A DNA stretch of 64,000 nt from Colwellia sp. BRX10-3. Its GTDB lineage: Bacteria; Pseudomonadota; Gammaproteobacteria; Enterobacterales; Alteromonadaceae. The DNA lies in contig NZ_JACGWA010000006.1 in assembly GCF_014077505.1 (NCBI RefSeq), positions 1-64,000 of the forward strand, read 5' to 3'. Under the pieces are notes generated by a model. The model was not told where the DNA came from. It searched no databases and saw only the letters and a program-made list of their open reading frames with translations. Below are positions 18,524-53,577 of the stretch, piece after piece; the stretch's first letter is position 1, and every line of letters starts with the position of its first letter. The position numbers and the translations under genes were made by a program.

Positions 18524-18525
18524 AG

Positions 18526-27252: not shown

Positions 27253-27274
27253 GTCTGTGCGATACCACACAGAC
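27253..27274 (-). promoter_or_regulatory. Crp-type operator upstream of poxB (site 1)
   Basis: The perfect arms GTCTGTG and CACAGAC are separated by 8 bp; the core CTGTGCG-ATAC-CACACAG is the best copy of the island motif. The TGTG-N8-CACA geometry is that of Crp/Fnr-family sites. It is 63 bp from the poxB start, and lies also upstream of the divergent gene at 27526. Confidence 0.7.
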
Positions 27275-27525
27275 CAACACATTCATTGTCGACATTATAA
27301 TTGTATAAGTGTTAGTTACAGCTTGGACAAATAGTGACAAATTTTTAGCAACGACTTAAAAACTAGGAATAACAACATTATTTGAAGAAATAGTGATGGA
27401 GTTTTTTTCGCATAAATATTATGGACTTACCCCTGTTGTTATATTTGTTATCACACTTTTGTCAATTTATGGCTGCGCAGAAGCTTCACTCCGCCACATT
27501 CACAACAATTGAGTTGAAAAATACG

Positions 27526-28107
27526 ATGACATCGAGGATAACTATAACAACAGCATTTATAACATCAGTACTTTGGAGCTCGAAATCCCGACGCATTCCA
27601 ATACTGACTCTACTCGTACTGCTAATACAATGTGGGCCACTAGTTAACGCAGGTGAAGGACCCTGGCCGTCGTTTACGGCGACGACCCTTAGCGGAGAAA
27701 AAGTCGACAGCGAAAAACTGATAGGTCAACCGACCCTACTCATACTTACCCCGTCTGGCAATGCCGCAGAATCCACTCGAGAATGGGTTAAGACTTTGCG
27801 CTCAAAGATAGATCAAAGTAAATATCGGGTTCGCGACGTACTGGCCGTCGATTTACCGTTCTTTATGTCGGAAGAAGACGCCATTGAGCGAGCCAAGGAG
27901 AAAGTCCCGAAGCGCTACCACGATCAAACTTGGATCCTCAACTCTCAGATTATGGAAGGCGCGTTGGGTGTGCCGTCTGATAGCGTAGAAGCAGTGATTG
28001 TTGTTCTGGATAAGAACGGTAACTTGATATCACAGGTTCACGGTAGGGTGACGTCGGCGCGGATGAGTGAGATCACCGACGCCTTACAAAGCCTTGCTAC
28101 CGACTAA
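27526..28107 (+). CDS. Secreted thioredoxin-fold protein without CxxC
   Basis: The protein is about 193 residues. The N-terminal hydrophobic segment (ILTLLVLLIQCGPLVNA) looks like a signal peptide, followed by a thioredoxin/YtfJ-like fold: PWPSFTATTLSGEKV, LIGQPTLLILTPSG, and later EAVIVVLDKNGNLISQVHGR. No CxxC pair is present, so it is not a classical redox thioredoxin. The true start is unsure: I use ATG 27526, but the frame extends to 27421 in AT-rich sequence, and base composition becomes G+C-rich from about 27580. The stop overlaps the end of a convergent CFA-synthase remnant. Confidence 0.6.
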   Translation: MTSRITITTAFITSVLWSSKSRRIPILTLLVLLIQCGPLVNAGEGPWPSFTATTLSGEKVDSEKLIGQPTLLILTPSGNAAESTREWVKTLRSKIDQSKYRVRDVLAVDLPFFMSEEDAIERAKEKVPKRYHDQTWILNSQIMEGALGVPSDSVEAVIVVLDKNGNLISQVHGRVTSARMSEITDALQSLATD

Positions 28108-28346
28108 CTGCTTTCGTCGCTGCTGCTTACGCTGTCATTTGGAAACTCCAGAACTACCCGATACGCATCCATTTCGTGACTGAGAAAAGCCTGCGCCGAT
28201 CCCCAGAGATACAGCCGTAACCGTCGATAAAGCATTTCGCCCCAACGGGTGACTATTTCATCGCGAGCGCCCTCCAGTTTCTCAACCCAACTCTTGCACG
28301 TAAGATAGTTCTTGCCGTCTGACTTGATGCACTGGTTCGGGTATTT
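28104..28346 (-). pseudogene. C-terminal remnant of a cyclopropane-fatty-acid synthase family gene
   Basis: An open minus-strand frame without a start codon encodes about 80 residues, including KSWVEKLEGARDEIVTRWGE, RLRLYLWGSAQAF and MDAYRVVLEFP. These match the C-terminal end of CFA-synthase-like methyltransferases. The upstream part of the gene is gone; sequence beyond about 28346 is AT-rich and unrelated. It shares G+C-rich composition with the adjacent thioredoxin-fold gene, so the two probably arrived together. Confidence 0.65.
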
Positions 28347-28404
28347 TATTTCTTATTAATTTATTGAAATTGAGTCAGACGAGAACTTGACGCCTTTTTT
28401 TGTA

Positions 28405-28812
28405 TCAATGCACTATTTTTATATCATGTGTTTTCACACAGGTATTATTGAAGTCGTCAAACTTATCGCATGTGGTTCGCACAAATGTCTTTTGTGCTGG
28501 GGAGAAAAAACACTTTGTCTGATAATGGCAGGTGTTATTGAACTTTTCCCAGTACTGACATTCTTCAACGCATTGGAGATTTTTGTAGATATAAGTCTTT
28601 TTTTCAAACAAGCATTTTTTATTAAAATCGTCCCAATATTGGCAGTCATTGAGAGCCAGAGGTTCATCCTCAGTTAACTGCTGGCCACAGGTGACGGTGA
28701 GGTCTCCCTGGCGGTATGTTTCTCCCGTGTCGAGACTTACCTCTTTTGCTGCGACATTAGCTGCTAAAAACGTCACCCCTCCAATGAAGCCCATCAACAA
28801 ATATTTGTTCAT
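28405..28812 (-). CDS. Secreted cysteine-rich protein with three C-x10-C repeats
   Basis: The 135-residue protein has a signal peptide (MNKYLLMGFIGGVTFLAANVAA). After it come three repeats of the pattern C-x-[YF]-x3-FN-x2-C: CQYWDDFNKKC, CQYWEKFNNTC and CDKFDDFNNTC. Additional cysteines between the repeats (VTCGQQ, LQCVEE, TKCFF, TTCDK) suggest several disulfides. It lies at the end of the copper locus in the same orientation, so metal binding or periplasmic redox is possible. I know of no named family. A ribosome site AAGGAA lies before ATG 28812. Confidence 0.7.
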   Translation of the reverse strand: MNKYLLMGFIGGVTFLAANVAAKEVSLDTGETYRQGDLTVTCGQQLTEDEPLALNDCQYWDDFNKKCLFEKKTYIYKNLQCVEECQYWEKFNNTCHYQTKCFFSPAQKTFVRTTCDKFDDFNNTCVKTHDIKIVH

Positions 28813-28862
28813 GATTTGATTCCTTATTAACTTAATTTTTCGATAATCGAATCTTTTCCTGA

Positions 28863-29104
28863 CTAGATTTTCTGAATAAGATCAATCTGTTTTTCATGGT
28901 TACTATTCAGTTCGATTTTTCCTTTCATCCCTGCCATGTTATGCGCAGGGTTGTGGTAGACAAAGTCATGGTAGCCTGGAAAAAACATTGCATTATGCTT
29001 CTGTGTATTGTCCTGGACATTAATTATTCTCCTACAACAGTCAGTATGGATGGCGAATATTTACCCTTAATAAGAATAGATATATGAATTGCATCAGGCT
29101 GCAT
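28863..29104 (-). pseudogene. Frameshifted cupredoxin-like remnant
   Basis: From ATG 29104 the frame reads MQPDAIHISILIKGKYSP to ILTVVGE and stops. One base over, the sequence goes on sensibly as NVQDNTQKHNAMFFPGYHDF and VYHNPAHNMAGMKGKIEL to the stop at 28863. The second part has the His and Met spacing of a blue-copper site (x4-H-x4-M), but the expected Cys is Tyr (TAC at 28956-28958). So both the frame and the copper ligand are lost. It belongs to the copper locus. Confidence 0.65.
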
Positions 29105-29117
29105 TTTTTAAACCTGT

Positions 29118-29600
29118 TTATTTCAATTCTATTTTTTTAAACATGCCAGCATCAAAATGGCCAGGAATATTGAAGGCAAAAACAACCATTTCATCACCTT
29201 CAAAGCGCCACGTTATGGTTTCAATGGCACCAGGCTGAATGGTTAATGTATTTCCATCCTCATCGTCATGCACCATTTTAGGCATCTTGCGCATCATTTC
29301 GGCATGTTATTCCTGCTCTTCCAGGCTACTGATAGAAAATTCATGAGGGATTCTCCCCTCATTCGAAACTACAAACTGAATAACACTGCCTGACTCAAAC
29401 TCTGAAAGTTCTTCATTGAACAGTATTTTCATCTGGTCATTCAGCGTTACCTGGATAGTATCAGTATCCTGCATAGCCATTACCCTTTCGCCCACTGTTC
29501 CTTGTTCTCCGCCTTCTTCTAAGTGCTCACTTGCAGTAAAGACCAAAGTAGAAAAGAGTAATAACGGTAGTCCTAACAAAAAAATATTAAATGTTTTCAT
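29118..29600 (-). pseudogene. Cupredoxin gene with internal stop and lost copper cysteine
   Basis: A signal peptide (MKTFNIFLLGLPLLLFSTLV) is followed by a plastocyanin/azurin-like domain (IQVTLNDQMKILFNEE, GRIPHEFSISSLEEQE). The frame is cut by TAA at 29307-29309. It continues in the same frame as HAEMMRKMPKMVHDDE, FEGDEMVVFAFNIPGHF and DAGMFKKIELK to a natural stop at 29118. In intact relatives the segment reads FACNIPGH; here Cys is Phe (TTC at 29172-29174). The N-terminal 97 residues could still be made but would not bind copper normally. Confidence 0.75.
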
Positions 29601-29652
29601 AATTCACTCCGTATTAATAAAATGAGTACAGGGTATAGGTTACATATACTAG

Positions 29653-30390
29653 TTACATCTGTTTCCATAACATCCAAACACCGGCCCCGACCATAAACAG
29701 ATTCTCCGTTAAAGATACGAACCCGAGGGGAACATTACTGTCTCCTCCGACGCAAGCACATTTGAGTTCTCGCTTATCTAAATACACTGCTTTGTATACC
29801 GAAATGGCGCCTACCGTGCCGATAAATAGTGATACCGGGCCCACGACATAACCTGATAAACCCGCAATCATACCGATACCCGCGAACGCTTCGGCAAAGG
29901 GATAAATATAGGCATAACGCAGGTGTTTCATGGCTAATAAATCGTAGGTAATAAACGAGTTAGAAAAGCCATATAGGTCACGTAATTTTTGAATTGCCAA
30001 AATAGTCATACTGAAAGCGACAAACAGCTCAATCACTTTGAGTGACATAATAGTACCTGATGAGGCATACACCGCGGCCAATGCCATCGCAAAAGCGGTG
30101 GCAAAAATAGCCAAGACAGGGGTATAAGTGGTACCAGTTTTCACTGCTGGCGGCAGGTCAAAATACGCCCTTAGTTCATCGTAACCACCCACACGCTTGC
30201 CATCGATGAAAGTCTGAGGCGTAGTTTCAACATTATGTTCTTGCTTAAACGTTTCGGTTTCTTCACGTGAACTTAGCCTGTGATCTTCAATATCAAAGCC
30301 TTTTCTCTCAAGTAAGTCTTTCGAGCGCAATCCATAAGGACAGATGTGCTGGTCAGTGAACATGCGATACAGTTTTGCTGTGTTTTTCAT
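29653..30390 (-). CDS. Glutaredoxin-MauE/DoxX fusion membrane protein
   Basis: The 245-residue protein has an N-terminal glutaredoxin domain (residues 1-78) with a monothiol-type CPYG site, TTPQTFIDGKRVGGYDEL, and then four or five membrane helices of the MauE type (about 90-240). The C-terminal loop holds CACVGG. The fusion is common in copper and mercury resistance regions, where it may pass electrons or deliver reduced thiols. Its start overlaps the DUF305 gene stop by four bases (ATGA), so translation is coupled. Confidence 0.8.
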   Translation of the reverse strand: MKNTAKLYRMFTDQHICPYGLRSKDLLERKGFDIEDHRLSSREETETFKQEHNVETTPQTFIDGKRVGGYDELRAYFDLPPAVKTGTTYTPVLAIFATAFAMALAAVYASSGTIMSLKVIELFVAFSMTILAIQKLRDLYGFSNSFITYDLLAMKHLRYAYIYPFAEAFAGIGMIAGLSGYVVGPVSLFIGTVGAISVYKAVYLDKRELKCACVGGDSNVPLGFVSLTENLFMVGAGVWMLWKQM

Positions 30391-30620: not shown

Positions 30621-30710
30621 AAGATAAGGCTGGTAGTCGCAACACCTATTGTTACAAAGCCGACTAATAATTGGCTTATCAATTCCATTTTTTAGTTCTT
30701 CATCATCAAC

Positions 30711-31457: not shown

Positions 31458-31466
31458 AACATACTC

Positions 31467-33299: not shown

Positions 33300-33411
33300 A
33301 GCAAGCCTCCTTTAAGTTAACATTTAACTTGGCACTGCCGATCGACTTGTAGCCAACAATTTGTGTCAGTTACGTGATCTTAAGTGTGATATTGGGTTGT
33401 GATAACAGTAT

Positions 33412-35231: not shown

Positions 35232-35264
35232 TTTGTATCCTTCTTCGTTTAATTTATCTTGTGT

Positions 35265-36236
35265 TTACTTCTTTTCAACTTGCGTTTGCTGCAAGTATTG
35301 AAACAATTCACTATCGGTCGATAGCAGCAAAGTAGTATTTTGACTAATGGCTATCTCATAGGTTTGCAATGAGCGTGTAAACGCATAAAACGCTACTGCC
35401 TCCTCATTTTGATTATAAGCTGCAGCATAAATGTCTGCTGCTTTGGCATCGGCTAGCCCACGAATTTCTTCTACTTGACGATAAGCTTCCGATTGTATTT
35501 TGTTTAAGTCTCGTTCACGGTTACCATGAATTCGAGCAGCTTCACCTTTGCCTTCTGATAAAAAGCGTTCAGCTATTTGTAGGCGTTCGCTGATCATGCG
35601 TTCATAAATTTTGGGCCGCACACTTTCATTATAATTAATGCGTTTAAAACGAATATCGAGCAGTTCAATACCAAACACTTTGACCTTTTCTGCCGCCGCA
35701 TTATAGATATCTTGCTCAACCAACAATCGACCTTTATGTATAGGCACTAAACTGCCAATATCTTGTGCTTTTTCAGCATCGGTCAGTAATGAATCTCTGA
35801 GTGGCTGACGGTCTTTAGATGTGCGAATAATCTCAATTAATTCGTGTTTGGCGACGGCATTTCGTGTTTCACTACCAAAAATATCATCTAGCCTTGATTG
35901 CGCACTGCGTTCATCGCCCAAACGCAAAAAGTATTGTAAAGGGTCAGTAACCTGCCAACGGGCAAACAAACTTACAGAAATATACAGTTTATCTTTAGTG
36001 GGCATATCTGATGGTGTGCCTTCCCATTCCAATACGCGCTTTTCGATAGAGTTGACTTGCTGAATAAAAGGAATTTTTAGTTTAATACCCGCATTAATAA
36101 CAGGCTCTCCAACGGGTTTACCGAACTGTGTAATGATCACTTGCTCTACTTCATTCACCGTATACAGTGCACTATTTATCGATACAACAATAAACACCAA
36201 TGCTACGGCACTTACTAACCATAGAAACTGTTTCAT
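35265..36236 (-). CDS. hflC: HflC-like band-7 protein
   Basis: The 323-residue protein has one N-terminal membrane helix (LWLVSAVALVFIVVSINSALYTV) and an SPFH/band-7 domain (VIITQFGKPVGEPVINAGI). It ends in a long coiled coil (LQIAERFLSEGKGEAARIHG, EAYRQVEEIRGLADAKAADI). HflC and HflK form a large inner-membrane cage around the protease FtsH and modulate it. The start overlaps the hflK stop by four bases. It is an accessory copy inside the island; the chromosome probably has another pair beside hflX. Confidence 0.88.
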   Translation of the reverse strand: MKQFLWLVSAVALVFIVVSINSALYTVNEVEQVIITQFGKPVGEPVINAGIKLKIPFIQQVNSIEKRVLEWEGTPSDMPTKDKLYISVSLFARWQVTDPLQYFLRLGDERSAQSRLDDIFGSETRNAVAKHELIEIIRTSKDRQPLRDSLLTDAEKAQDIGSLVPIHKGRLLVEQDIYNAAAEKVKVFGIELLDIRFKRINYNESVRPKIYERMISERLQIAERFLSEGKGEAARIHGNRERDLNKIQSEAYRQVEEIRGLADAKAADIYAAAYNQNEEAVAFYAFTRSLQTYEIAISQNTTLLLSTDSELFQYLQQTQVEKK

Positions 36237-37324
36237 TGTGTTGCTTCCTTAATTGTTGTTAAGTTTAAAAGTGGCAGAACGCTTTGCGCCTTGCTGTCAA
36301 TGATGATTTTATTACTGATCTGTGGCATCACCTTTTGCATGGTTTCTAAATAAAGACGTCTACGCGTTACCTCGGGCGCTTTTATATACTCGGCAAACAA
36401 TGCATTGAAACGAAGTGCATTTCCTTCGGCTTCGTTTATTCGTTTTAATCGATACCCGTCGGCCTCTCGAATGCGCTGATCGCGTTCTCCTTCAGCTAAA
36501 GGAATAACTCTGTTGTATTCGCGGCGCGCTTCGTTTATTAGTTTTTCTTTCTCTTGCTGAGCTTGGTTGACCTTGTTAAAGGAGGCTTGCACTGCTTGTG
36601 GTGGGTTTATATTTTTTAGTTGTACTTGATCAATACGGATTCCCATCACATATTTTGTTGATAGTGCCTGCATCTTGCTTAAAGCTTCTACTTCAATCTC
36701 TTGCCGACCAATAGTTATCACTTCATCTACAGTGCGATCTCCTACCACTTCCCGCATGACAGATTCTGATACGTAGCGCAGGGTACCAGCAGGATCACGC
36801 ACCTCAAACAAATAGTATTTGGGGTCGGCAATACGGTATTGAACCACCCATTCGACTAAGGCTGTGTTTAAATCGCCAGTCACCATTTGGGTTTCCCCTA
36901 TCTGATTACTTAATAAGTCAACTTTAGACTTATCCGACATATAAAAGCGATTCGGAGTAATATTTTGATCGGGATCAGTAGCGCCGGGCGTAGAAAAGCC
37001 GAACTCTTGCTTTAGTTGCCGCTTAGTGGGGACTATATTGACTTGGTCGATACCTAAAGGGACTTTGAAGTGTAATCCCGATGGCTTAATCACCTCAAAT
37101 TTACCAAACCTCAGTACTACCGCTACGGAATCACTAGGCACCGTATATAAGCTGGTGTAACCCGTAAATACGATCAATAGCACAATAAAAACACTTAGTA
37201 CGGTTTTGATTTTCCCTGTAGGTAACCCTTTTTGAATAGCGCTAAACAAAGTTTTCCCTGCTTTTTCCATAGCCACTTCTCGCTTAGTGTCTTCTTTTTT
37301 ACTCGCTTCATTTGATGTAGACAT
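36233..37324 (-). CDS. hflK: HflK-like band-7 protein
   Basis: The 363-residue protein has a membrane helix (about 45-65) after a charged N-terminus and the band-7 domain (VPSDSVAVVLRFGKFEVIKP). It then has IRIDQVQLKNINPPQAVQAS and a coiled coil (NQAQQEKEKLINEARREYNR). The Gly-rich N-terminal segment typical of chromosomal HflK is short here. It forms the HflKC complex with the next gene. A Crp-type site lies 92 bp upstream (37416-37431), so expression may follow the island regulators. Confidence 0.86.
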   Translation of the reverse strand: MSTSNEASKKEDTKREVAMEKAGKTLFSAIQKGLPTGKIKTVLSVFIVLLIVFTGYTSLYTVPSDSVAVVLRFGKFEVIKPSGLHFKVPLGIDQVNIVPTKRQLKQEFGFSTPGATDPDQNITPNRFYMSDKSKVDLLSNQIGETQMVTGDLNTALVEWVVQYRIADPKYYLFEVRDPAGTLRYVSESVMREVVGDRTVDEVITIGRQEIEVEALSKMQALSTKYVMGIRIDQVQLKNINPPQAVQASFNKVNQAQQEKEKLINEARREYNRVIPLAEGERDQRIREADGYRLKRINEAEGNALRFNALFAEYIKAPEVTRRRLYLETMQKVMPQISNKIIIDSKAQSVLPLLNLTTIKEATQ

Positions 37325-37415
37325 TGCTTCTCACTTTGTTGGTGATGTCGAAAATATCTTGTGTCAATAACCAGATAGTTAATAATTCAATGATACAAAA
37401 TAGATCTTATAGTCT

Positions 37416-37431
37416 CTGTGCGGTAAGGCAC
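37416..37431 (-). promoter_or_regulatory. Crp-type operator upstream of hflK (site 2)
   Basis: CTGTGCG-GTAA-GGCAC matches site 1 in its left half exactly and keeps the central TA and the right CAC. The distance to the hflK start is 92 bp. Confidence 0.6.
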
Positions 37432-37542
37432 TTACAGCGCTTGTGAGAAATTTTTATAAACCATTGGCGCGCTTTTATTGCTAAGCAGTTTAATCATTGA
37501 TTAATGATAGATTTAGTAGATATTGTTGTCGTAATTGCTCAG

Positions 37543-37746
37543 TTAATCGTCACTATTAAGGCTGTTTGACACACGTAGTAATAATCCTTTTACTTCTTTG
37601 CCTAATTCTTGAATATCGGGATTATCCACCACTTGCATTACAGCTTCCTGATCCATAAAAGAAACAGTAATTGTGCCGTTGGCTTCTTCGCGCACCACTA
37701 CATTACAAGGCAGCAGCAACCCGATATCGGTGCGGCATCGCGCATA
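37543..37746 (-). pseudogene. C-terminal remnant of a DUF302 protein
   Basis: A frame without a start reads YARCRTDIGLLLPCNVVVRE, then ANGTITVSFMDQEAVMQVVD and LGKEVKGLLLRVSNSLN to a stop at 37543-37545. GLLLPCNVVVRE is the typical DUF302 block. The first half of the gene is missing, and the adjoining sequence (about 37747-37800) is of different composition, marking a deletion junction. The rest of the 37325-38024 gap has no other gene. Confidence 0.7.
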
Positions 37747-43642: not shown

Positions 43643-44467
43643 CTAAGGCTGTGGCTTTGCAGTGTCACTTTTATCATCATCCAGCCAATAACCGGGGCGT
43701 TCATAATGATTGTAGATAACCATTTCCGCCTTACGATCCACTTGCATTGAATCGTTATACGGCGGAGCGTCTTTCACTTCATGTCGTGTCAGATTGACAG
43801 ACGCCTTAGCATCAGCCCAACTTATATCTTGAATCCAATGTGGAGGAATAAGTACTTGATGACCAAGCCACCAGTTACTTGTATTAACTATCATGTATCG
43901 AATAGCCCAAGTATCTTCATCGATAAGCAGCCCCTCTATATGGCCGATGTCACCATCGGTAGCATGAATGTGGTAGTCGATTATCGCCTGACAACTACGC
44001 AGATGTATGTCGTCATCTTGGTGCTGTTCGGCTTTAGAATCCTTCGTCACTTGTGGATCTTCATCATGGGGTGGCGAAACAAAGCCGTCGTGCCTCGTTA
44101 ACATCATACTCGGATACATACCTCCGCCCCACATACCATAACCTCCCCAATAATATGGATAGCCGTAGTACTCGAATAACTCGATTTCTTGCTGTCGAGA
44201 GACTGGCTTTTGGGTATTGATGTCTGGGCTATTCTCGACTTGGTCTTTTGTGATCGAAACAGGTAACAGCTTATCCGCCCAGTTCGGTATGCCTATAGAT
44301 ATAGGCGATATCAGTACTTTTCTACTCGAAAGCCAAGTACCTGTGTCAACAACGAGATAGCGAGCACACCAAGTTTTGTCATCGAAATAGACATCTGTGA
44401 CATGACCAATGTTGCCATCTGTCGCTTGGATAATATAGCCTTCTAGATTTTTAATAGTTCGTAACAT
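43643..44467 (-). CDS. Double PRC-barrel protein
   Basis: The 274-residue protein has two PRC-barrel-like domains: residues 1-75 (YIIQATDGNIGHVTDVYFDD, WCARYLVVDTGTW) and 160-230 (YHIHATDGDIGHIEGLLIDE, WAIRYMIVNTSNWW). The linker is rich in Tyr, Gly and Met (YGYPYYWGGYGMWGGGMYPS). Similar two-domain proteins appear in stress regions of many proteobacteria; the role is not known. GGAGAAAAG lies before ATG 44467, and a probable Crp-type site is at 44548-44563. Confidence 0.82.
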   Translation of the reverse strand: MLRTIKNLEGYIIQATDGNIGHVTDVYFDDKTWCARYLVVDTGTWLSSRKVLISPISIGIPNWADKLLPVSITKDQVENSPDINTQKPVSRQQEIELFEYYGYPYYWGGYGMWGGGMYPSMMLTRHDGFVSPPHDEDPQVTKDSKAEQHQDDDIHLRSCQAIIDYHIHATDGDIGHIEGLLIDEDTWAIRYMIVNTSNWWLGHQVLIPPHWIQDISWADAKASVNLTRHEVKDAPPYNDSMQVDRKAEMVIYNHYERPGYWLDDDKSDTAKPQP

Positions 44468-44547
44468 GAGATCTTTTCTCCTTCAAATATAAAATAGTCA
44501 AACAGGGTTAGATATAGAATATTAATACACTGAATTGGTAACTCTGT

Positions 44548-44563
44548 CGGTGCGCTTGCGAAC
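44548..44563 (-). promoter_or_regulatory. Probable Crp-type operator upstream of the PRC-barrel gene (site 6)
   Basis: CGGTGCG-CTTG-CGAAC matches site 5 at 13 of 16 positions but lacks the exact CTGTGCG arm and the central TA. It is 81 bp from the start, like sites 3 and 4. Weaker than the other five. Confidence 0.4.
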
Positions 44564-44691
44564 ATTAGAAGCTGTTGTTCTGTCGAAATTACTGTTACAG
44601 AAAATTATTGACTATTGATACAAGGCAAAGTCTTTGTTGTGTGGTTGTTTCACATAAAAAGGCTATAAAGCTTTGTGCTCCTGCAATGTCA

Positions 44692-44832: not shown

Positions 44833-44865
44833 ATTTTACATATAATAACTATGTAACAAGCCTAG

Positions 44866-45834
44866 CTAATGCTCTGGCAGTGGAACATAACCAGCCTTCG
44901 TTGTCACCGCTTGACCTGCTGTAGAACGGGCATAATTAAGAAAGGACTGTACGGCTGGATCGGCATCTTGGCCTAGCGGGATATTGATAATCATACTGAG
45001 CCTGCGCGCGAGAGGATAACGTCCGCTTTGAATTGATTGAATCGAGGGAGTAACCGCTGTTTCCTCTACCTGTGGGGCGATCGCCAACGCACGGATACCA
45101 GCCAAGTCTCGCGCACTACTAGCGAAACCAATAGCAGCTGGGTTGTCGACCAAAGCCCACACCACGGATGCGGGACCAGCAAGCGCTTGGAAATTGGCAC
45201 TAAAATCGCCATCACACAGGGCAACGTGTTTGAATAACAGGTACGCGCCGTTGGCGACTGTCAACCCCAGAGCTGTAATATGCTTATTGCTCAATCCTCC
45301 TTTCACGCCCAATTGGTGCCAGCTGTGCAAGGGCTGCTCGGCACCACAACGCAGAGTGGCAGAGTAGATAGCGTCAAGCTGTGGCAGTGCTATTTGCTTT
45401 AGCGGGTTTAGTGAACTGACATATACCGCCACTCCGTCCATAGCCACCGGATAAACAGTGGGAGCATAGCCGAAGTGCTCCATAAATCGCGCATTCTCAT
45501 GCTGACTCAAAGGCATATCCGTAAGCGCGGAATTAGCGCTACCGTTGAGTAACGCTTCAACACCCACTGCACCGCCTGCATCCGCGATAGTGATCGAAAT
45601 ACGGGGGTTGCGAAGAGTAAAATCGTCGGCCCACAGACTAATTAGATTCGCTAGAGAAACAGAACCAGTGACCACGATATGTCCGCTTGGCGGTGGTTTT
45701 GATTCAGAAGCTGCATAACTCGGTGCTAGGAAAATGCAGAGCAGCGCTGGAAGTAGCACCAAAATCTGTGACCGTAACATACGCGCCGTCGAACGGCAGT
45801 AAGAATTAAATAACACAACAATGCTGTTGAACAT
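44866..45834 (-). CDS. PstS-like phosphate/oxyanion binding protein
   Basis: The 322-residue protein has a signal peptide (LLPALLCIFLAPSYAA) and a PstS-type fold: GHIVVTGSVSLANLISLWAD, ISITIADAGGAVGVEALLNG, VYPVAMDGVAVYVSSLNPL and SIQSGRYPLARRLSM. It is not accompanied by pstCAB, so it is an orphan; comparable orphans act in phosphate scavenging, matrix formation or sensing. Its higher G+C than the flanking genes suggests independent arrival. AGGAAA lies before ATG 45834, which almost abuts the coiled-coil gene. Confidence 0.75.
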   Translation of the reverse strand: MFNSIVVLFNSYCRSTARMLRSQILVLLPALLCIFLAPSYAASESKPPPSGHIVVTGSVSLANLISLWADDFTLRNPRISITIADAGGAVGVEALLNGSANSALTDMPLSQHENARFMEHFGYAPTVYPVAMDGVAVYVSSLNPLKQIALPQLDAIYSATLRCGAEQPLHSWHQLGVKGGLSNKHITALGLTVANGAYLLFKHVALCDGDFSANFQALAGPASVVWALVDNPAAIGFASSARDLAGIRALAIAPQVEETAVTPSIQSIQSGRYPLARRLSMIINIPLGQDADPAVQSFLNYARSTAGQAVTTKAGYVPLPEH

Positions 45835-45880
45835 AGTATTTTTCCTGCTAGGCTCTGGAGATTACCCGATGGGCATAGCT

Positions 45881-46168
45881 TTATTTTCTTCTGGAGGTGA
45901 CCGACTTAATACTATTGCCGATCGTGTCCCACGCATTATCAATACCTGCAGTGAGTTCTTCCCATGCGTCATCACTGGCGTCTTTAAGTTTGACAAGTTT
46001 ACTGTTAGCACTTTCTTGCATGGTACGTAGTTCTTCGATTTGTTTGTAGTACTCAAGTTGTGCTCCGGCTTGAGCTTTTTCTGCTTTTGCCTTGAGCTTA
46101 ACGATCTCTGCACTCAACTCATCCAATTGCACTTGCAGTTTTTTTTGGTAAGCTTCTTTCATGTTCAT
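45881..46168 (-). CDS. Coiled-coil stress protein, copy 2 (sll1863-like)
   Basis: This 95-residue paralogue of 25108-25395 has the same length, the same start (MNMKEAYQKKLQVQLDELSA) and the same LEYYKQIEELRTMQESANSK middle; the C-terminus differs (TIGNSIKSVTSRRK). The preserved upstream AAAGGAAAATAATAATG also resembles copy 1. It is not next to poxB here but lies downstream of two small charged genes and a STAS scar. Confidence 0.8.
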   Translation of the reverse strand: MNMKEAYQKKLQVQLDELSAEIVKLKAKAEKAQAGAQLEYYKQIEELRTMQESANSKLVKLKDASDDAWEELTAGIDNAWDTIGNSIKSVTSRRK

Positions 46169-46327
46169 TATTATTTTCCTTTCTTGGTTTATATTTAGAT
46201 TGAATGGCTAGTTTAAAACTTTAAAGGCATTTTCTGGCTCCTCACAAACTCAAGCTCTACTGCCTATTTACCGCCTAACTAACCGGTTACTGCCTTTGAA
46301 AATAAGGTTTGTTAACGTTGAGAAATC

Positions 46328-46516: not shown

Positions 46517-46649
46517 ATTAAAGGATTAAGAAGTTCTGTTCAATAGCAAACATTAGGTAATGGGATCGATTGATAATTCCTGATAAAATAATAGGAGTAA
46601 ATATGGATAGGTACCGGATAAGATGCATAAACCTATATTTTATAAATTG

Positions 46650-46790
46650 CTACTTTTGGGCATTAATATCAGATTGCTGATCTTGATATTTCTGACCTAA
46701 GTAAATGATATCAGGATGAGCTTTTTTAGCGGCTTTAGCTTTAACTGATTTTTTGTCACTAGGCTTTTGATCTTGCGTTAATTTTTTCAT
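46650..46790 (-). CDS. Small basic protein (46 aa)
   Basis: The ATG at 46790 is preceded by GGGAGTAACTA, a fair ribosome site. The peptide is lysine-rich (MKKLTQDQKPSDKKSVKAKA) with the tail DIIYLGQKYQDQQSDINA. It shares with the next small gene upstream the phrase SDKKSV/IDKKSV, so the two may be related. No family is recognised. It lies in a run of same-strand genes behind operator site 3. Confidence 0.55.
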   Translation of the reverse strand: MKKLTQDQKPSDKKSVKAKAAKKAHPDIIYLGQKYQDQQSDINAQK

Positions 46791-46824
46791 TAGTTACTCC
46801 CAAAGTTCTGTATGTTTAGGTGTT

Positions 46825-46962
46825 TTAATAATGTCTTTTTAGGTTTATTAACCGATTATTGAAATTGTGGTTTTGCCCTATAGAAATAGTTTCTACTTCA
46901 ACAGACTTTTGTTCACTGGGATTCTGTATAACAGATTTTTTATCAATATTTGACGTTTTCAT
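46825..46962 (-). CDS. Small polar protein (45 aa)
   Basis: The ATG at 46962 follows GAGGTAACT. The sequence begins MKTSNIDKKSVIQNPSEQKS and ends in FNNRLINLKRHY. It is the first gene behind operator site 3 (79 bp upstream), which supports it being real. Function is unknown. Confidence 0.55.
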   Translation of the reverse strand: MKTSNIDKKSVIQNPSEQKSVEVETISIGQNHNFNNRLINLKRHY

Positions 46963-47040
46963 AGTTACCTCTACATTCTCGCCAATTACGCCACTGTAAA
47001 AGGCTAAGAAGTAAAGTGTAAGTCAAACTAGCTTAGGTAT

Positions 47041-47056
47041 CTGTGCGATAGTGCAC
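47041..47056 (-). promoter_or_regulatory. Crp-type operator (site 3)
   Basis: CTGTGCG-ATAG-TGCAC shares the left arm and centre with site 1. It is 79 bp from the start of the 45-aa gene at 46962. Confidence 0.6.
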
Positions 47057-47141
47057 TTTATATGATGAAAATTTAGAATAAGGGTTGGCGAAGTTTACAT
47101 AAAAGATTGTAAATAGGCTCCGCACGTTGCAGCAGGCTAAC

Positions 47142-47852
47142 TTATTCTATGGCAGAAATTTCTTCTAACCTATCTGTTTCTTGTTTAACCACTTCATAGC
47201 ACTCACAACACAGGGTTTCAAGTTTACTTCTGTCTGTCACGGTTATATGGCCGCGCTTGTAGGTAATAACCCCTTCCTTTTGTAATTTTCCCGCAGCTTC
47301 GGTAACGCCTTCTCTTCTAACGCCTAGCATATTTGCGATCAACTCTTGGGTCATCGTTAGGTTATTGGTTCTTAGGCGATCTAGGGAGAGTAGTAACCAG
47401 CGACAAAGTTGTTGGTCAATGGAGTGATGGCGATTACATACAGCAGTTTGTGCCATTTGCGCAATTAATGTTTGAGTGTAACGTAACAGCAACATACGAA
47501 TTGTAACGTCATTATGAAATTCTTTACGCATTAGTGAAGCTGGCATGTGATACGCGTAGCCTGCACTTTGCACAACTGCCCTGTTAGGCGTACTTTCCCC
47601 GCCCATAAAAACAGCAATACCAACAACGCCTTCATTACCAACAACCGATATCTCAGCTGATGAACCATTTTCGGTAACATAAAGGAGAGAAACAATGCTA
47701 TCTATAGGGAAATATACACAAGTAAGATTTTCCCCAGATTCATATATCACTTTCCCTAGAGGCAACTTAACAAGTTTGAGCTGAGGGAATATTGTATTTT
47801 TATTTGCTTCAGGCAACAATTTTAATAATTTGTTATCGGCGGGACTATTCAT
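47142..47852 (-). CDS. Crp/Fnr family transcriptional regulator 1
   Basis: The 236-residue protein starts at ATG 47852 with AAGGAG (not 47870). It has a cyclic-nucleotide-binding-like beta-roll (GKVIYESGENLTCVYFPIDS, GNEGVVGIAVFMGG), a dimer helix, and a helix-turn-helix (MTQELIANMLGVRREGVTEA). The C-terminus has a CCEC cluster. The roll lacks the PFGExxLL motif of cAMP-binding Crp, so the ligand is unknown. It is the likely partner of the island's TGTG-N8-CACA sites. Confidence 0.85.
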   Translation of the reverse strand: MNSPADNKLLKLLPEANKNTIFPQLKLVKLPLGKVIYESGENLTCVYFPIDSIVSLLYVTENGSSAEISVVGNEGVVGIAVFMGGESTPNRAVVQSAGYAYHMPASLMRKEFHNDVTIRMLLLRYTQTLIAQMAQTAVCNRHHSIDQQLCRWLLLSLDRLRTNNLTMTQELIANMLGVRREGVTEAAGKLQKEGVITYKRGHITVTDRSKLETLCCECYEVVKQETDRLEEISAIE

Positions 47853-48678
47853 TTTTCTCCTTAAAATCATTTTTCCTTAAACTAAAAATTCTGCTTTACT
47901 CTTATTTTTTAGCTCAAATGTAGCGAACACGAGATAAATCTCGCAACTTCATAATATATCCTTCCTCCATTAATATTTTTGCTTTACGTTAAATGTGAAC
48001 AGATGAGAATAGTTTTCTCTTACTTGGATCAATGCTTGTGACTTTATTTCTATTCATCATAAACGTTGTTACTACGCTTTCGGCCAGTAAGGATTGTTCG
48101 TGTTGTTATCAGCTTCACCCTTAAGTGGGTAATTTGGTAGCCGATTATCGTTACCTACACGATTTATATGAGAAGTTGTTTGGATTAGTACCTATGGACA
48201 AAAGACTAGCATAACAAAATAGCAAATATCATTATGTCGGCTAGCTAACATAGGTGAAAGAATATCCATCATGCGCGCAATTCAGTGGTTTGCCAAGAGA
48301 TATAACTAACTTTTCATTATAACGAACCGATATTGTTACTTTCGCAACTTACCGGCTTGTGATACACGTTTTATATAGTTATCTCACTCAAATTTTTCCC
48401 TCACGTTAGCACTTCAATATAAGAGCTGTTCTAATCACTCAATATTAAATAATCCTTCTCGAACAGACTAAATACCACTCGTAAGTGGATCTGATAGTGG
48501 AAAGCAAAATCGTGAATGAATGATAGTTGACATAGTTGTCCCTAATGATTTAGTGATTGTTAATTGAGAACGATATTTTGGATGAGATAAAATTTAGAGA
48601 AGTTACTATTCCTAGATAGTACTTGCTAAATTATTCATTTGAGGTGGTATGGCAATATATTTTTGTCAACATTCATAT
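47853..48678. other. Gene-free region between the two regulators
   Basis: About 825 bp of AT-rich sequence with no open frame of note. It has a small palindrome CGAGAT-aa-ATCTCG around 47931-47944 in the regulator-1 promoter region. No copy of the CTGTGCG motif was seen here. It may hold decayed genes that I cannot identify. Confidence 0.4.
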
Positions 48679-49395
48679 CTATTTAGAAATTACTAATGTC
48701 TTTTGATAAGCATTAACAGACGAAAAATAGCATTGACAGGATGAATTTTCGAGGCCATATCTAGACAAGATATTAATTTGTCCGCGGTTATAGCTTATAA
48801 TGCCTTGACGTTGTAAACAACCTGCCGCAATAGTGACAGCGCTACGGCGTACACCCAATATTTTCGCTAAAAACTGATGTGTTAGCTGAAGATGTTCAGA
48901 ATTAGTACGATCCTGTGTCATTAATAACCATCGAGCAAGCCGTTGTTTGACTTCATGAAAATTATTGCATGCGCCAGTTTGAGCAAGTTGTTGTATCAAG
49001 ACATAGAGATAATTGTGTATCAATTTACTTATCACTAGATTATTTTTTACTTGGTGGTGGAACATTGTTGCATCCATTCGCAACGCACTCCCTGAGCCTT
49101 GGACTATCGACTTCATTGGTGCCTTTGGATTTCCAAGAGCAAGCGTGGCACCTAGCATGCCCTCATTCCCAATTAACCCCATCTCTAAGGACTGTTTCTC
49201 ACCAACTTCTACAAATGATGAGATAAAGCTAGTTAGTGGAAAATAAACATATTTTATGACTTCATCAGCAATATTAAGTGTTTCGCCAAACACTAGCTCT
49301 ACAGGCGTGCAAACGTCAAGAAATAACTGGCGCTCTTGTATAGGTAAATAGTTTAATAAATGATTATTTACCGGTGAGGTGCAAGTTGCAGTCAC
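48679..49395 (-). CDS. Crp/Fnr family transcriptional regulator 2
   Basis: The 238-residue protein is best started at GTG 49395, seven bases after GGAG; the longer frame to 49452 has no such site. The fold is the same as regulator 1: VYFPLTSFISSFVEV, GLIGNEGMLGATLALG and the helix-turn-helix LTHQFLAKILGVRRSAVTIA, with CQC near the end. The shared GVRR-x2-VT-x-AA recognition helix suggests both bind similar DNA. Operator site 4 lies 79 bp upstream, so autoregulation is likely. Confidence 0.83.
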   Translation of the reverse strand: MTATCTSPVNNHLLNYLPIQERQLFLDVCTPVELVFGETLNIADEVIKYVYFPLTSFISSFVEVGEKQSLEMGLIGNEGMLGATLALGNPKAPMKSIVQGSGSALRMDATMFHHQVKNNLVISKLIHNYLYVLIQQLAQTGACNNFHEVKQRLARWLLMTQDRTNSEHLQLTHQFLAKILGVRRSAVTIAAGCLQRQGIISYNRGQINILSRYGLENSSCQCYFSSVNAYQKTLVISK

Positions 49396-49473
49396 TAGAA
49401 TCTCCAATGAATAAGTCCATAAATCAAGGAACGTAATCGTTATTGATAACATGGGCTAATATTGGTTTTTCGT

Positions 49474-49489
49474 CTGTGCGTTATACCAC
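49474..49489 (-). promoter_or_regulatory. Crp-type operator upstream of regulator 2 (site 4)
   Basis: CTGTGCG-TTAT-ACCAC keeps the left arm, the central TA and the right CAC. It is 79 bp from the GTG start, the same distance as site 3 from its gene, which also supports that start. Confidence 0.6.
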
Positions 49490-49725
49490 TAAGTATGTAA
49501 ATCGTTAATATTGAAATGTATTTCATTTAAGGTTATCAAGAAGTCTTTAACAAAACATCAGCTTCATTTTAAATTCACGAATTTTTTAAAGTGAGACGTT
49601 ATGGGCAGAAAGTGCCACAAAGAAGACCTAATTTAGTCGTGAATTTACCACAACAAATAGTCAGCGCTGCCACTTGAGTCCAAATAGTGAATGCAACGCT
49701 ATCCTTATTACAAAGGAGTGTAGCT

Positions 49726-49877
49726 ATGAAAAAAGATCTCGTAATACTTATACTGTCCATCAAAAATCAGTAACGTGGGAACGATACAAGCAAGGTTGCA
49801 CGCCAACTGATATCGCTAGAATGTTAAAATGGCACACTCTGAACTTAGATCAGTCTATACATTGGTTTTCTAGTTAA
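49726..49877 (+). pseudogene. Possible frameshifted small gene
   Basis: A strong AAAGGAG is followed by ATG 49726, but that frame ends after 15 codons (MKKDLVILILSIKNQ). One base over, an open frame runs to 49877 with the helix-turn-helix-like SVTWERYKQGCTPTDIARML. A single base change would join them. Low confidence. The rest of 49396-49930 holds only site 4. Confidence 0.3.
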
Positions 49878-50000
49878 TAGTAAACATGACATTCAAGAGT
49901 AATTCCCTTATTTGACACAACGTTTGTAAGTTTGATAGCGTGGACGAGTCAAGGAGAGGCTTATACCTCTCCTGTTATTTTGAACCGTAAAGGAGAAATC

Positions 50001-50567
50001 ATGACTAAAAGTAATCAGCACAAAGCAGCTAAATTCACGGTACCTGGCATGGACGAAACGACGGCAAACCGTGTTATATCTACTTTAGACAATCGTATGG
50101 TAGCACTGCTCGATTTGGCCCTCACACTCAAGCACGTTCACTGGAACGTTGTTGGCCCCAATTTTATCAGTGTTCACGAAATGCTAGATCCTCAGGTAGA
50201 CGCTGTACGAGACATGACTGACACTATTGCAGAGCGAATAGCTACTTTGGGTGGAACCCCATTAGGCACACCGCAATCTATTACTGATCGTCGCACCTGG
50301 GATGATTATTCGTTAGGTAAAGCATTGGTTATGGAGCATCTGGGTGCCCTTGATTTAGTCTACAACGGGGTGAATAGCGATCATCGCAAAGCAGTGATTG
50401 AAATGGGAGAGCTAGATCCTGTATCGGAAGACATGCTCATTGGTCAGTTAATTGATATGGAGCAGTTCCAATGGTTTATTCGTGCGCATCTTGAATCTTC
50501 TGACGGTGATTTAGTCACAGCCAACAACCACACCGAGTCGGGTGCAGCGAAATCTGCACGTTCTTAA
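50001..50567 (+). CDS. dps: Dps family DNA-binding ferritin-like protein
   Basis: The 188-residue protein starts at ATG 50001 behind AAAGGAG. The Dps ferroxidase motif is LKHVHWNVVGPNFISVHEML (about 46-65), followed by VDAVRDMTDTIAERIATLGG. Dps forms a 12-mer that stores iron, removes peroxide and coats DNA. The N-terminal tail (TKSNQHKAAKF) is basic, fitting DNA binding. A partial match to the island motif (GTTTGATAGCG at 49930-49940) lies about 60 bp upstream. It is the only plus-strand cargo gene of this part. Confidence 0.92.
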   Translation: MTKSNQHKAAKFTVPGMDETTANRVISTLDNRMVALLDLALTLKHVHWNVVGPNFISVHEMLDPQVDAVRDMTDTIAERIATLGGTPLGTPQSITDRRTWDDYSLGKALVMEHLGALDLVYNGVNSDHRKAVIEMGELDPVSEDMLIGQLIDMEQFQWFIRAHLESSDGDLVTANNHTESGAAKSARS

Positions 50568-50687
50568 ACCGATCTGATTATATTTATTTTCGATGGCGCC
50601 TTTGGCGTCGTCAAATTCCTCGACATATATTTCAATACGGTATCAAATTCCACGAATTCATCCGAAGCTTAAATAATTTAGCTATAG

Positions 50688-52229
50688 CTAAGATTTGCTA
50701 TTTTCTGACTCGTCATCGGCGTTCTTTGCCTCAGTGTCTTCAACTTCGACTTTTGGTGTACCATCAGAATTAAATTCGGCTATCGCTTCACCAGAGGATT
50801 TCCAGCCTTCTCTTTCTTCATCAGTTGCTTTGGGCGAGAATAACCCGGTAAAAGCATAGAAAATTCCAATTAGGGGAGCAGTCCAGCAGGCAAAAGCAAG
50901 TGGTATGTACAAAAGGTTTTCTACATTACCATCGGCAATACCAAGTCCGAGAGCTGCAATTACAAATGCGCCACCCGCATTCCATGGAATTAGCGGAGAC
51001 ATTAATGTTCCGCCTTCTTCAATTCCGCGTGATAAATTCAAAGTTGAATAACCCATACCACGATAAACCGGTGAGTACATTCTTCCCGGTAAAGCAATAG
51101 ATAAGTAGGGATCACCGGCGACTAGGTTAGTTGCAAACGCGGTTCCAATAGCGGCGGTTTGAATGCCAGCAAAACTAGTGACTTTACTCTTAATCGCATT
51201 AATAATCGATTTCAAACAACCTGTTTTCTCTAGCGCTCCGCCAAAGCCCAACGCAATCAATATTAAGGAAATTGTCCACATCATGGATTGAATGCCACCT
51301 CGATTTAACAGGCTGTCAATCTCTCCAATACCGGTGTTTATTGAATAGCCATTGTTCGCAAAATCAAAAATTGATTGTAAACTCTGTCCCTGAGCAATCA
51401 TTGCTGTTGCCCCACCCGCTACAACGCCGGCGAATAGTGATGGCATGGGAGGATATTTCTTTATAGCTAAGCCCATCACAATCAAAGCTGGCAATAATAC
51501 CCATCCTGAAATATAAAAGTTTTCATCTAAGGCACTAGTGATACCGCTAATTTTTTCAAATGAAATGCTTTGGGTGTCGATGACGAAAAATCCAACTAGC
51601 AAATATATAATAAGTGCGATCAGCATAGCTGGGATGGTAGTTGCCATCATATTCTTTATATGAGAAAAAACGTCGGTGCCGGTAACCGCAGGGGCTAAAT
51701 TAGTGGTGTCGGAAAGTGGTGAAATTTTATCACCAAAAAATGCTCCTGAAACTACAGCGCCAGCAGTCCAATATGCAGGGATATCGAAGCCTTCTCCAAT
51801 TCCCATTAAGGCCAAACCAACAGTACCTACACTCGCCCAGCTAGTGCCAAGAGCAAGGGAAACTATGGCGCAAATTACCATACCAGCAGCTAGGAATAGT
51901 TCAGGCGAAAGTACTTTTAAGCCGAAATAGATAATACTTGGTACCGTACCGCTGGCAATCCAAACTCCAATGATCATCCCAACCGTTATTAAAACCGATA
52001 CCGAAGGTAAAGCGACGTGAATAACGTGAAAAATGCCTTTCTCTATACCCTTCCATTTCAGTCCTAGCTTAATTCCAACAATACTCGTAATGGCTAAGCC
52101 AATGGCAAGGGGAATGTGAGGCTCGAAAATGCCAAAGTAAAATATTTGTGTCCCAAGAATAAGTAGAGTTAACACGACGGGCGTCAAGGCAAGTAATAAA
52201 CCCGGATTTGCACTTTCTGTCCGTTTCAT
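50688..52229 (-). CDS. nhaC: Na+/H+ antiporter, NhaC family
   Basis: The 513-residue protein has about 12 membrane helices. The NhaC blocks are GTSWASVGTVGLALMGIGEG and VSGAFFGDKISPLSDTTNLA, with a second half carrying AIGTAFATNLVAGDPYLSIA and RGIEEGGTLMSPLIPWNAGG. It exchanges sodium for protons, or sometimes organic anions (malate/lactate forms). The C-terminus is an acidic tail (VEVEDTEAKNADDESEN). It forms a single-gene unit. Confidence 0.9.
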   Translation of the reverse strand: MKRTESANPGLLLALTPVVLTLLILGTQIFYFGIFEPHIPLAIGLAITSIVGIKLGLKWKGIEKGIFHVIHVALPSVSVLITVGMIIGVWIASGTVPSIIYFGLKVLSPELFLAAGMVICAIVSLALGTSWASVGTVGLALMGIGEGFDIPAYWTAGAVVSGAFFGDKISPLSDTTNLAPAVTGTDVFSHIKNMMATTIPAMLIALIIYLLVGFFVIDTQSISFEKISGITSALDENFYISGWVLLPALIVMGLAIKKYPPMPSLFAGVVAGGATAMIAQGQSLQSIFDFANNGYSINTGIGEIDSLLNRGGIQSMMWTISLILIALGFGGALEKTGCLKSIINAIKSKVTSFAGIQTAAIGTAFATNLVAGDPYLSIALPGRMYSPVYRGMGYSTLNLSRGIEEGGTLMSPLIPWNAGGAFVIAALGLGIADGNVENLLYIPLAFACWTAPLIGIFYAFTGLFSPKATDEEREGWKSSGEAIAEFNSDGTPKVEVEDTEAKNADDESENSKS

Positions 52230-52367
52230 TTAAATACCTCATGTTTTTTATTCATAAATTAGGTGACGAATAGTCATCGTGATTGGTAAAACAATAGGCC
52301 AACTTAACTTGTTACGGCTTTGAGAAAATCACTACATCGTCGACCATTAAGGATGACAAAGGTAGTG

Positions 52368-52823
52368 TCACACATCATTCATCCTTTGGAGGCCATGCAT
52401 TATTTGCCGATTTTTTTGATGTAAATTATTGATCAAATCCTGAATATACTCTTTACTATAATTGTTGATTATCAATGGTAAAATGGATCTTAGCCACATT
52501 TCTATTTTCTCATTTATCTCTAACATTACAGCGATTATTTTTTCACTGTTTGCATTAGGAGCTAATGCTAGTTTTTCTATATAAACTAATAACTGCTCGT
52601 CAATATCATCATCAAACCACATTTCAAATATTTTAATAGGCGCCTCTATCAATGAGGTCATTAAATATTGGTTTCTGACTTTTTGCTTGTCTGTTAAATA
52701 ATGTAAAAACATCCTAGCGCGTTCTTGCTCTGTCACTTTAAGACTTCTCTCATAAAACGCTAGCGTTGCGGTATTCAATGTTATTAGGTGTTCAAATACT
52801 TCACTTAATTGGTGATAACGCAT
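52368..52823 (-). CDS. Hypothetical helical protein
   Basis: The 151-residue protein starts at ATG 52823 with AAGGAAA. It is all helical (MRYHQLSEVFEHLITLNTAT, YLTDKQKVRNQYLMTSLIEA), perhaps a four-helix bundle of the rubrerythrin/ferritin-like sort, but no clear iron-ligand set is visible. It is transcribed with the glycine-rich stress gene upstream. Function unknown. Confidence 0.6.
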   Translation of the reverse strand: MRYHQLSEVFEHLITLNTATLAFYERSLKVTEQERARMFLHYLTDKQKVRNQYLMTSLIEAPIKIFEMWFDDDIDEQLLVYIEKLALAPNANSEKIIAVMLEINEKIEMWLRSILPLIINNYSKEYIQDLINNLHQKNRQIMHGLQRMNDV

Positions 52824-52950
52824 AACTTTCCTTTCTATTCTGAATTGTCTGAGCCTAGAGCATGTCGCCAACTTTGGTAACTGCATAGGGAGTATTGAAG
52901 GGGCGGTCGAGAGTGAAAGCCAAAATTGTCACTTCCTGTTCTGACACCAA

Positions 52951-53463
52951 TTAAGCCATATCTACATCTTTGTAATCACCAATGGAACCTTTAATAATTT
53001 TTTGTGCTATATCGGTTTCGTCTTGCGTAAGCGTTTTTGCGACAATCACAACTTGCCCACTGGTAATGGCATCTTCAATTAAAGCAGATAGTGACTTTGC
53101 ATTTTCCGCCGCACCTATCGTCGCCCCCACCAAACCGCCAATACTTGCACCCCAGCCGAGTAATACGAGTGGTGCAATCAAAGGGCTTGCTACAAATAAA
53201 GTGACATTCGCGGCAATAAGACCGACTTGAGCCAATGCACCTATTCCTGTTCCTGCCACTGTACCAATGGTGCCATCTACCAAGATTTCTTTTAAAACTT
53301 GATTGCTACTTTCTACCGGTTCATGCACCGGTGCTGTTGTGAGTTCACTGTAAGTTTGCACGCGTTCGCGCGGCAGACCTTGAGCAGCAAGTTTTTCCAA
53401 CACATCATTGGTCTCTTTGCTGTGCTCAAAAAAACCTGTTACATAATGCACGTAATCATTCAT
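52951..53463 (-). CDS. General-stress-like protein with glycine-rich hydrophobic core
   Basis: The 170-residue protein has an N-terminal ferredoxin-like part (YVHYVTGFFEHSKETNDVLE). Two hydrophobic glycine-zipper segments follow (LVDGTIGTVAGTGIGALAQV; LVLLGWGASIGGLVGATIGA), and a closing domain (ALIEDAITSGQVVIVAKTLT). The layout resembles the general-stress-17M/DUF1269 type. Operator site 5 is 99 bp upstream, making it a candidate regulon member. GGAGAAAAATC lies before the ATG. Confidence 0.75.
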   Translation of the reverse strand: MNDYVHYVTGFFEHSKETNDVLEKLAAQGLPRERVQTYSELTTAPVHEPVESSNQVLKEILVDGTIGTVAGTGIGALAQVGLIAANVTLFVASPLIAPLVLLGWGASIGGLVGATIGAAENAKSLSALIEDAITSGQVVIVAKTLTQDETDIAQKIIKGSIGDYKDVDMA

Positions 53464-53561
53464 GATTTTTCTCCTATAGTTAGACCAACAGCCCCTAATG
53501 TATTAATCACTATTATTGATTACTAAGTTAGTATTAGCATAGCTAGTTTTAATACTGTCAT

Positions 53562-53577
53562 CTGTGCGCTATCGAAC
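53562..53577 (-). promoter_or_regulatory. Crp-type operator (site 5)
   Basis: CTGTGCG-CTAT-CGAAC has the left arm and central TA; the right arm is AAC instead of CAC. It is 99 bp from the start of the gene at 53463. Confidence 0.55.

Follow-up and report, generated by a model that had tools for sequence, protein, structure and literature searches.

A palindromic operator repeated across a tRNA-bounded stress island of Colwellia sp. BRX10-3 is probably read by the island's own Crp/Fnr-type regulators

The box recognized by CRP of Escherichia coli is TGTGA-N6-TCACA, and that recognized by FNR, ANR and DNR is TTGAT-N4-ATCAA. Here, a 64,000-nucleotide stretch of Colwellia sp. BRX10-3 (NCBI RefSeq assembly GCF_014077505.1, contig NZ_JACGWA010000006.1, positions 1 to 64,000; the window hereafter) was analyzed, in which a 40.5-kb genomic island encodes two Crp/Fnr-family proteins, Reg1 (47142..47852, minus strand) and Reg2 (48679..49395, minus strand), and carries a recurrent palindromic site upstream of many of its genes. 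The island system resembles that of E. coli CRP in domain family, in the 16-bp core dyad, in the TGT...ACA spacing and in a predicted site centre at about -41.5. It differs from CRP in its half-site, which is TGTKCG with a central TA, the fourth base being degenerate and followed by C-G, in the confinement of the sites to the island, and in the residue aligned by eye with CRP R185, which is E or I in the island regulators. With FNR, ANR and DNR it shares the Crp/Fnr superfamily and a cargo of stress or low-oxygen type, but the box is another one and the Reg1 sequence has no FNR-type N-terminal cysteine cluster.

Two further systems are comparable in organization. The low-oxygen-activated (lxa) locus of Burkholderia cenocepacia is a cluster of stress genes present in only some strains and induced together, for which the Anr-like protein BCAM0049 has been suggested as regulator (PMC6127331, PMC3759415, PMC9104464); the island would be like it in these respects. 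The portions of PMC6127331, PMC3759415, PMC9104464 and PMC4603805 that concern this locus contain no link to the island palindrome. On pKLC102, a conjugative element of Pseudomonas aeruginosa (NC_019202.1), the regulator is 71% identical and six sites scoring at least 12 with the matrix described below are found within 21.7 kb, all six between annotated genes (locus L212, 11111-17380). The cargo of pKLC102 is unlike that of the island and comprises a GH94 protein, a fatty acid desaturase and a methyltransferase. In the openly licensed PubMed Central literature no described operator or function was found for the regulator subfamily, an absence that is weak evidence, and the matches listed there for the string CTGTGCGCTA were only titles on unrelated subjects.

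An earlier note on this DNA had proposed an island-wide operator of Crp geometry, read by the two regulators, and had quoted six sites, all of which were found where it placed them. The 16-mer that they were said to share, CTGTGCGNTANNNCAC, is exact at 27255, 37416, 47041 and 49474, while 53562 has one mismatch and 44548, upstream of the PRC-barrel gene, has three. The distances from site to gene start had been given correctly, including the two of 79 bp (46962 to 47041 and 49395 to 49474), and 27253-27274 is indeed the dyad described. The spacing is that of Crp/Fnr sites, as proposed; the box, however, is not the CRP-type TGTGA but TGTKCG-N-TA-N-CGMACA, and the sites in other bacteria do not have the TGTGA half-site either. 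DNA near close relatives of Reg1 contains fuller palindromes, such as CTGTGCGCTAGCGCACAG and CTGTTCGCTAGCGAACA, and with these relatives included the operator becomes the palindrome T-M-TGTKCG-N-TA-N-CGMACA-K-A. A position matrix was derived from foreign loci alone (80 loci), without any window sequence. In the window, its nine highest-scoring hits are, in descending order, 53563, 27256, 44549, 21468, 21671, 47042, 37417, 37729 and 46537; all are in the island and all are intergenic by simple open reading frame (ORF) calls, with 37729 (matrix 15.2) doubtful because it lies inside a DUF302-like broken coding remnant recognized by eye. The earlier note had overlooked 21468, 21671, 46537 and 48235. 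The PRC-barrel site exists, but its description as weaker did not hold, since 44549 scores 19.5 and is among the best by matrix, and the Reg2 site (49475) is weak at 4.2. Outside the island nothing in the window reaches 10, the two highest matches there being 9.4 and 9.2, in agreement with the earlier impression that the flanks hold no copy. Two candidates were rejected, namely 20114, which has a single good half, a matrix score of 0.6 and no -10 hexamer, and the supposed partial match before dps, the best score in 49500-49990 being -6.6.

Specificity was assessed in the genome of the strain itself (3,871,055 bp, 55 contigs). As the earlier note had suggested, the background frequency of the motif was scanned genome-wide, and the exact 16-mer was found to be confined to the island, with four of four matches located there (chance about 1.2e-8). 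With up to two mismatches, CTGTGCGNTANNNCAC occurs at 91+72 places and its reversed pattern at 60+62, and because these counts are near each other the weak matches are mostly noise. The half-site CTGTGCGNTA is present at 25 places genome-wide, six of them in the island (p=2e-7). For the 20-bp palindrome TMTGTDCGNTANCGHACAKA, the island holds three of three places at up to one mismatch, four of seven at up to two and ten of 27 at up to three. These ten compare with 0.28 expected for 27, and the 17 places outside the island are no more than given by the reversed-pattern control (27). The matrix found no match of at least 12 and one of at least 10 in 400 kb of the same genome. A count of the palindrome at up to one mismatch in this genome and 59 relatives was near the reversed control among the matches listed and was uninformative.

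The sites can be observed well beyond Colwellia. Relatives of Reg1 at E <= 1e-3 occur in 23 of 60 genomes (the strain's own and the 59), about half of them weak, as other Crp/Fnr proteins would be. The foreign set consisted of the best 80 of 575 Reg1 relatives, mostly from Gammaproteobacteria and a few from Betaproteobacteria. In these 80 loci TGTKCGNTANCGMACA gives 19, 51 and 112 sites at zero, one and two mismatches, respectively, and 30 permuted palindromes give means of 0.03, 1.1 and 13.1. In 36 of the 80 loci a palindrome with up to two mismatches is found no more than 400 bp upstream of the regulator match, compared with 4.8% of random 400-bp stretches from the same loci, and the density of sites scoring at least 14 reaches 8.5 per 10 kb in the first kb upstream of the regulator, with 0.3 to 2.4 in the other bins. 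The position matrix, from 54 intergenic foreign sites, reads T-(C/A)-T-G-T-(G/T)-C-G-N-T and its mirror; half-site base 4 is G at 0.45, T at 0.42 and A at 0.12, and base 5 is C at 0.97, in sites that were selected with a seed already requiring K and then C.

The second regulator gives a corresponding picture. A Reg2 query matches 30 of 274 genomes of the class at E <= 1e-30, the strain's own included, and a close Reg2 (at least 44% identity) is found in 17 foreign genomes, 13 of which have a second family member within 5 kb (counted by hand). At the best Reg2-query locus of each of 29 foreign genomes, a site scoring at least 14 is present in 22 cases (21 of 28 without the one locus shared with the 80), and 200 permuted matrices gave 0.15 cases on average and 3 at most; for the close Reg2 loci the figure is 14 of 17, or 13 of 16 without the shared locus. 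Because the other 12 loci belong to remoter members of the family and a Reg1-like gene is also present at many loci, this result does not show which protein binds. Among the 274 genomes, the exact palindrome occurs in ten of 31 with the regulator family versus 15 of 243 without it (p=8e-5), and in those ten genomes 11 of 16 exact sites lie within 30 kb of a family gene (counted by hand). The palindrome thus goes with one Crp/Fnr subfamily, which includes both regulators of the island. Judged from its distribution, the predicted operator is not peculiar to the island and belongs to a subfamily of many Gammaproteobacteria and some Betaproteobacteria. These data also bear on the alternative that a regulator of the core genome, whether global CRP, FNR or a stress regulator, binds the sites and wires the island into its host. 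TGT...ACA spacing is that of the superfamily as a whole and host regulators often take over islands, but if a host regulon were involved, sites would be expected beyond the island as well, where none of the four exact matches and none of the three palindrome places at up to one mismatch are located. Moreover, none of 11 loci of other Crp/Fnr proteins has a site, and in genomes lacking the family the rate is close to that of the control, with 16 exact sites in 243 genomes versus 12 in 274 for the reversed pattern (counted by hand). A host CRP or FNR box was ruled out by the genome-wide specificity and by these 11 loci, and control by a core-genome regulator in general is considered highly improbable.

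Promoter geometry provides the third line of evidence. In the foreign hexamer test, 86 of 235 listed sites were kept (nine of the 235 being the window's); sites within ORFs of at least 100 amino acids were excluded, as were those for which either both sides or neither side had a downstream gene close by. Resemblance of the hexamer to TATAAT is greatest at offset 29 from the centre of the site, with a mean of 2.51 matches over the 86 foreign sites, beyond the 2.02 that was the maximum of 5000 circular shifts, and at least four of six positions match in 22 of the 86. When the six sites of the earlier note are taken alone, this offset comes out first among 62 (mean 4.0, p_max 0.002); with all twelve window candidates, 37736 and 20120 included, p_max is below 1 in 5000. 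A hexamer at this offset would place the site centre at -41.5, which is the position of a class II activator. The better half is promoter-proximal in eight of the 11 window sites listed, distal in one and tied in two, and in the foreign sites it is proximal in 41 and distal in 22, with 23 ties. The same position can be read differently, since a site at -41.5 overlaps the -35 box and autoregulated Crp/Fnr proteins are able to repress; Reg1 and Reg2 would then be mainly repressors that block RNA polymerase at the -35 region. Against this, the sharp, fixed spacing from hexamer to centre is as class II activation requires, and sites of repressors tend to scatter around the promoter; predominant repression is therefore regarded as unlikely. 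It is harder still to credit that one duplicated promoter cassette or an insertion element left the sites behind and that they were never selected as operators, and we give this next to no weight. Their common orientation toward minus-strand genes and AT-rich surroundings would fit such an origin; the oriented window sites, however, have little in common beyond palindrome and hexamer when compared by eye, and the same palindrome accompanies this regulator family in other bacteria.

The best reading is that of a mobile stress island which would be run by its own paired Crp/Fnr activators, and the proposal of an island-wide operator read by the island's regulators is supported, at the level of sequence, by genome-wide specificity, subfamily co-occurrence and activator spacing. 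The sites are very probably operators of Reg1 and/or Reg2 that serve class II activation of stress-type genes. What is observed are the sites, their specificity, their association with the subfamily and their fixed spacing to a -10-like hexamer; binding, activation, the choice between Reg1 and Reg2 and the signal are what we infer from them. A dimer of Reg1 and/or Reg2 would occupy the 20-bp palindrome centred at -41.5, would contact RNA polymerase as a class II activator, and would activate the poxB-like, hflKC-like, PRC-barrel, MBL-fold, stress-protein and small genes. As the regulator genes also carry sites, the circuit is probably autoregulated.

Several observations weigh against this reading. 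Because the seed of the palindrome was taken from the window and from relatives, the matrix is only in part de novo, and the foreign loci are mutually related and not independent. An exact site lies within 400 bp upstream of just nine of the 80 regulators, and 44 of the 80 have no site at up to two mismatches within that distance; seven of the 29 Reg2-query loci have no site of at least 14, and 21 of the 31 family-carrying genomes, including the window's own, lack the exact palindrome. A 30.7-kb region of B. cenocepacia whose regulator is 66.5% identical contains no site of at least 12. At offset 29, 64 of the 86 foreign sites match fewer than four of six hexamer positions, and the putative position of -41.5 derives from only the six most hexamer-like offsets. 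In the island itself, the operator of Reg2 is poor by matrix, and no site of at least 10 is found at the copper genes, the permeases, the PBP-like gene 44866-45834 or dps.

Reg1 matches the Pfam models HTH_Crp_2 (PF13545, 1.7e-16) and cNMP_binding (2.4e-08), scores that were taken on the longer ORF 47142-47870. Its paralogue Reg2 matches HTH_Crp_2 (2.7e-14), has no Pfam effector-domain match at E <= 0.001 and aligns with Reg1 over its length at 35% identity; its start at 49395 is the likelier one because the start of the longer ORF, 49452, sits in the predicted -10 box. Both are thus Crp/Fnr-family proteins, as had been claimed, but to call their recognition helices near-identical was an overstatement, VRREGVTEAAG of Reg1 and VRRSAVTIAAG of Reg2 being identical at eight of 11 positions. 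They differ at likely contact residues, aligned by eye with what we take to be E181 and R185 in CRP numbering. In Reg1, R180 and E181 are retained and E stands in place of R185; by eye and on this assumed numbering, this would fit the invariant G at half-site position 2 and the degenerate position 4. In an alignment of the window's Reg1 with 42 of the 80 loci (43 sequences), C139, N140, R141, H142, H143, C216, E217, C218 and Y219 are invariant, cysteine being so at 139, 216 and 218, and the first invariant cysteine and C-x-C-Y are also present in Reg2. In the Reg1 family, CNRHH is placed by eye close to the hinge predicted to follow the dimer helix, and CECY is close to the C-terminus. These motifs possibly form a metal or redox site, from which one could guess that Reg1 and Reg2 are metal or redox sensors; they may even act as a two-input switch on one operator, sensing through CNRHH and CECY. 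The best-matching solved structures are distant from the regulator (3dv8, 3.9e-09), and the NCBIfam NtcA model gives 41 bits, under its cut-off of 244.95, so that the protein is not assigned to NtcA.

The island seems, from its predicted operators, to bring its own wiring into new hosts, which suggests how mobile islands keep their cargo under control after transfer. It is conceivable, at somewhat less than even chance, that this is a portable regulon, in which islands and conjugative elements spread a Crp/Fnr activator pair together with cargo pre-fitted with the palindrome, the paralogues maybe forming a two-input switch. If so, stress cargo of varied origin could be plugged in without rewiring the host. 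A widespread Crp/Fnr subfamily gains a defined operator, a promoter geometry and likely targets (stress, envelope and signalling proteins), and its function is therefore directly testable.

The window genes with sites encode a stress protein, a poxB-like TPP enzyme, PRC-barrel, MBL-fold and Band_7 (hflKC-like) proteins, a small gene product and the regulators; all sites are on the minus strand. The highest-scoring putative operator (53561..53580, matrix 26.2, TATGCT at 53536-53541) precedes gene 52951-53463, the "stress protein" of the earlier note, which has no Pfam or NCBIfam match. That of the poxB-like gene 25454-27190, a TPP enzyme by its Pfam TPP domains, is at 27254..27273 (24.5, hexamer AAAAAT at 27229-27234), between this gene and the opposite-strand ORF 27421-28107. 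The PRC-barrel gene 43643-44467 has its site at 44547..44566 (TATTAA at 44522-44527), and this family has the site in three foreign loci also. Upstream of the MBL-fold gene 20574-21275 there are two sites, 21466..21485 (19.5, TAAAGT at 21441-21446) and, about 400 bp from the start, 21669..21688 (18.0, TATTCT at 21644-21649). The site of the small gene starting at 46962 is at 47040..47059 (16.5, TACACT at 47015-47020), and that of the hflK-like (36233-37324) and hflC-like (35265-36236) genes, both Band_7 by Pfam, at 37415..37434 (16.2, TATCAT at 37390-37395); one gene from the same cluster has a site in locus L153 too. A candidate operator (46535..46554, 14.2) precedes the sll1863-family gene 45881-46168 by about 370 bp, and the hexamer at the fixed distance is AGGAAA, not -10-like. 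The candidate of Reg1 is at 48233..48252 (10.9, TATGCT at 48208-48213), and the site of Reg2 at 49473..49492 (exact 16-mer, CATGTT at 49448-49453) has a perfect promoter-proximal half and a poor distal half. The doubtful site is at 37727..37746 (hexamer TGTAAT), and the remnant around it, named DUF302-like by eye, spans 37560-37745 upstream of hflK.

In the foreign loci, the clusters most often beside a site are the regulator family itself (30 loci), a very large protein (15), PAS-GGDEF (13) and BON (9), followed by PAS (8), DUF4398 (6), PRC-barrel (4 including the window) and HflK (2 including the window). Foreign genes were called by a simple longest-ORF method, by which some listed targets are spurious ORFs, and the family names rest on one representative each. 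From its size and neighbourhood, our guess is that the very large protein is of the GH94 type found on pKLC102.

The island is bounded by tRNA-Ser (TGA) at 59071..59161 (minus strand) and by a 76-nt copy of the tRNA-Ser 3' end at 18516..18591, 96% identical to 59057-59132, the two copies being 40,541 bp apart; it has the tRNA and the direct repeat of its 3' end that define a tRNA-integrated genomic island. No intact integrase was found among the 36 ORFs scanned with Pfam, a part of the window's ORFs. A further partial copy of the 3' end (51 nt, 18391-18441) is present at the left edge, and the two partial copies may have come from two insertions at a single site, successive or in tandem. The same-genus genome G003 matches 46525-49531, with both regulators and the small genes, and 35255-37332 (hflKC), beside the same tRNA-side flank; for most of the remaining island, the 50 kb of G003 that were compared contain no match at the nucleotide level. 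The sites at 46535 and 47040 are kept there (matrix 18.1 each), the counterpart of 48233 is stronger (15.3), and the 16-mer of the Reg2 operator is unchanged. The 21468 site is also kept and is located there on the hflK side of the island; as a remnant fragment lies between this operator and hflK in G003, promoter and gene seem to have been reshuffled. A stress-protein gene is present in two copies in the window, 25107-25406 and 45880-46179 (300 nt, 79% identical), and of these only 45880-46179, of the sll1863 family, has a candidate operator upstream.

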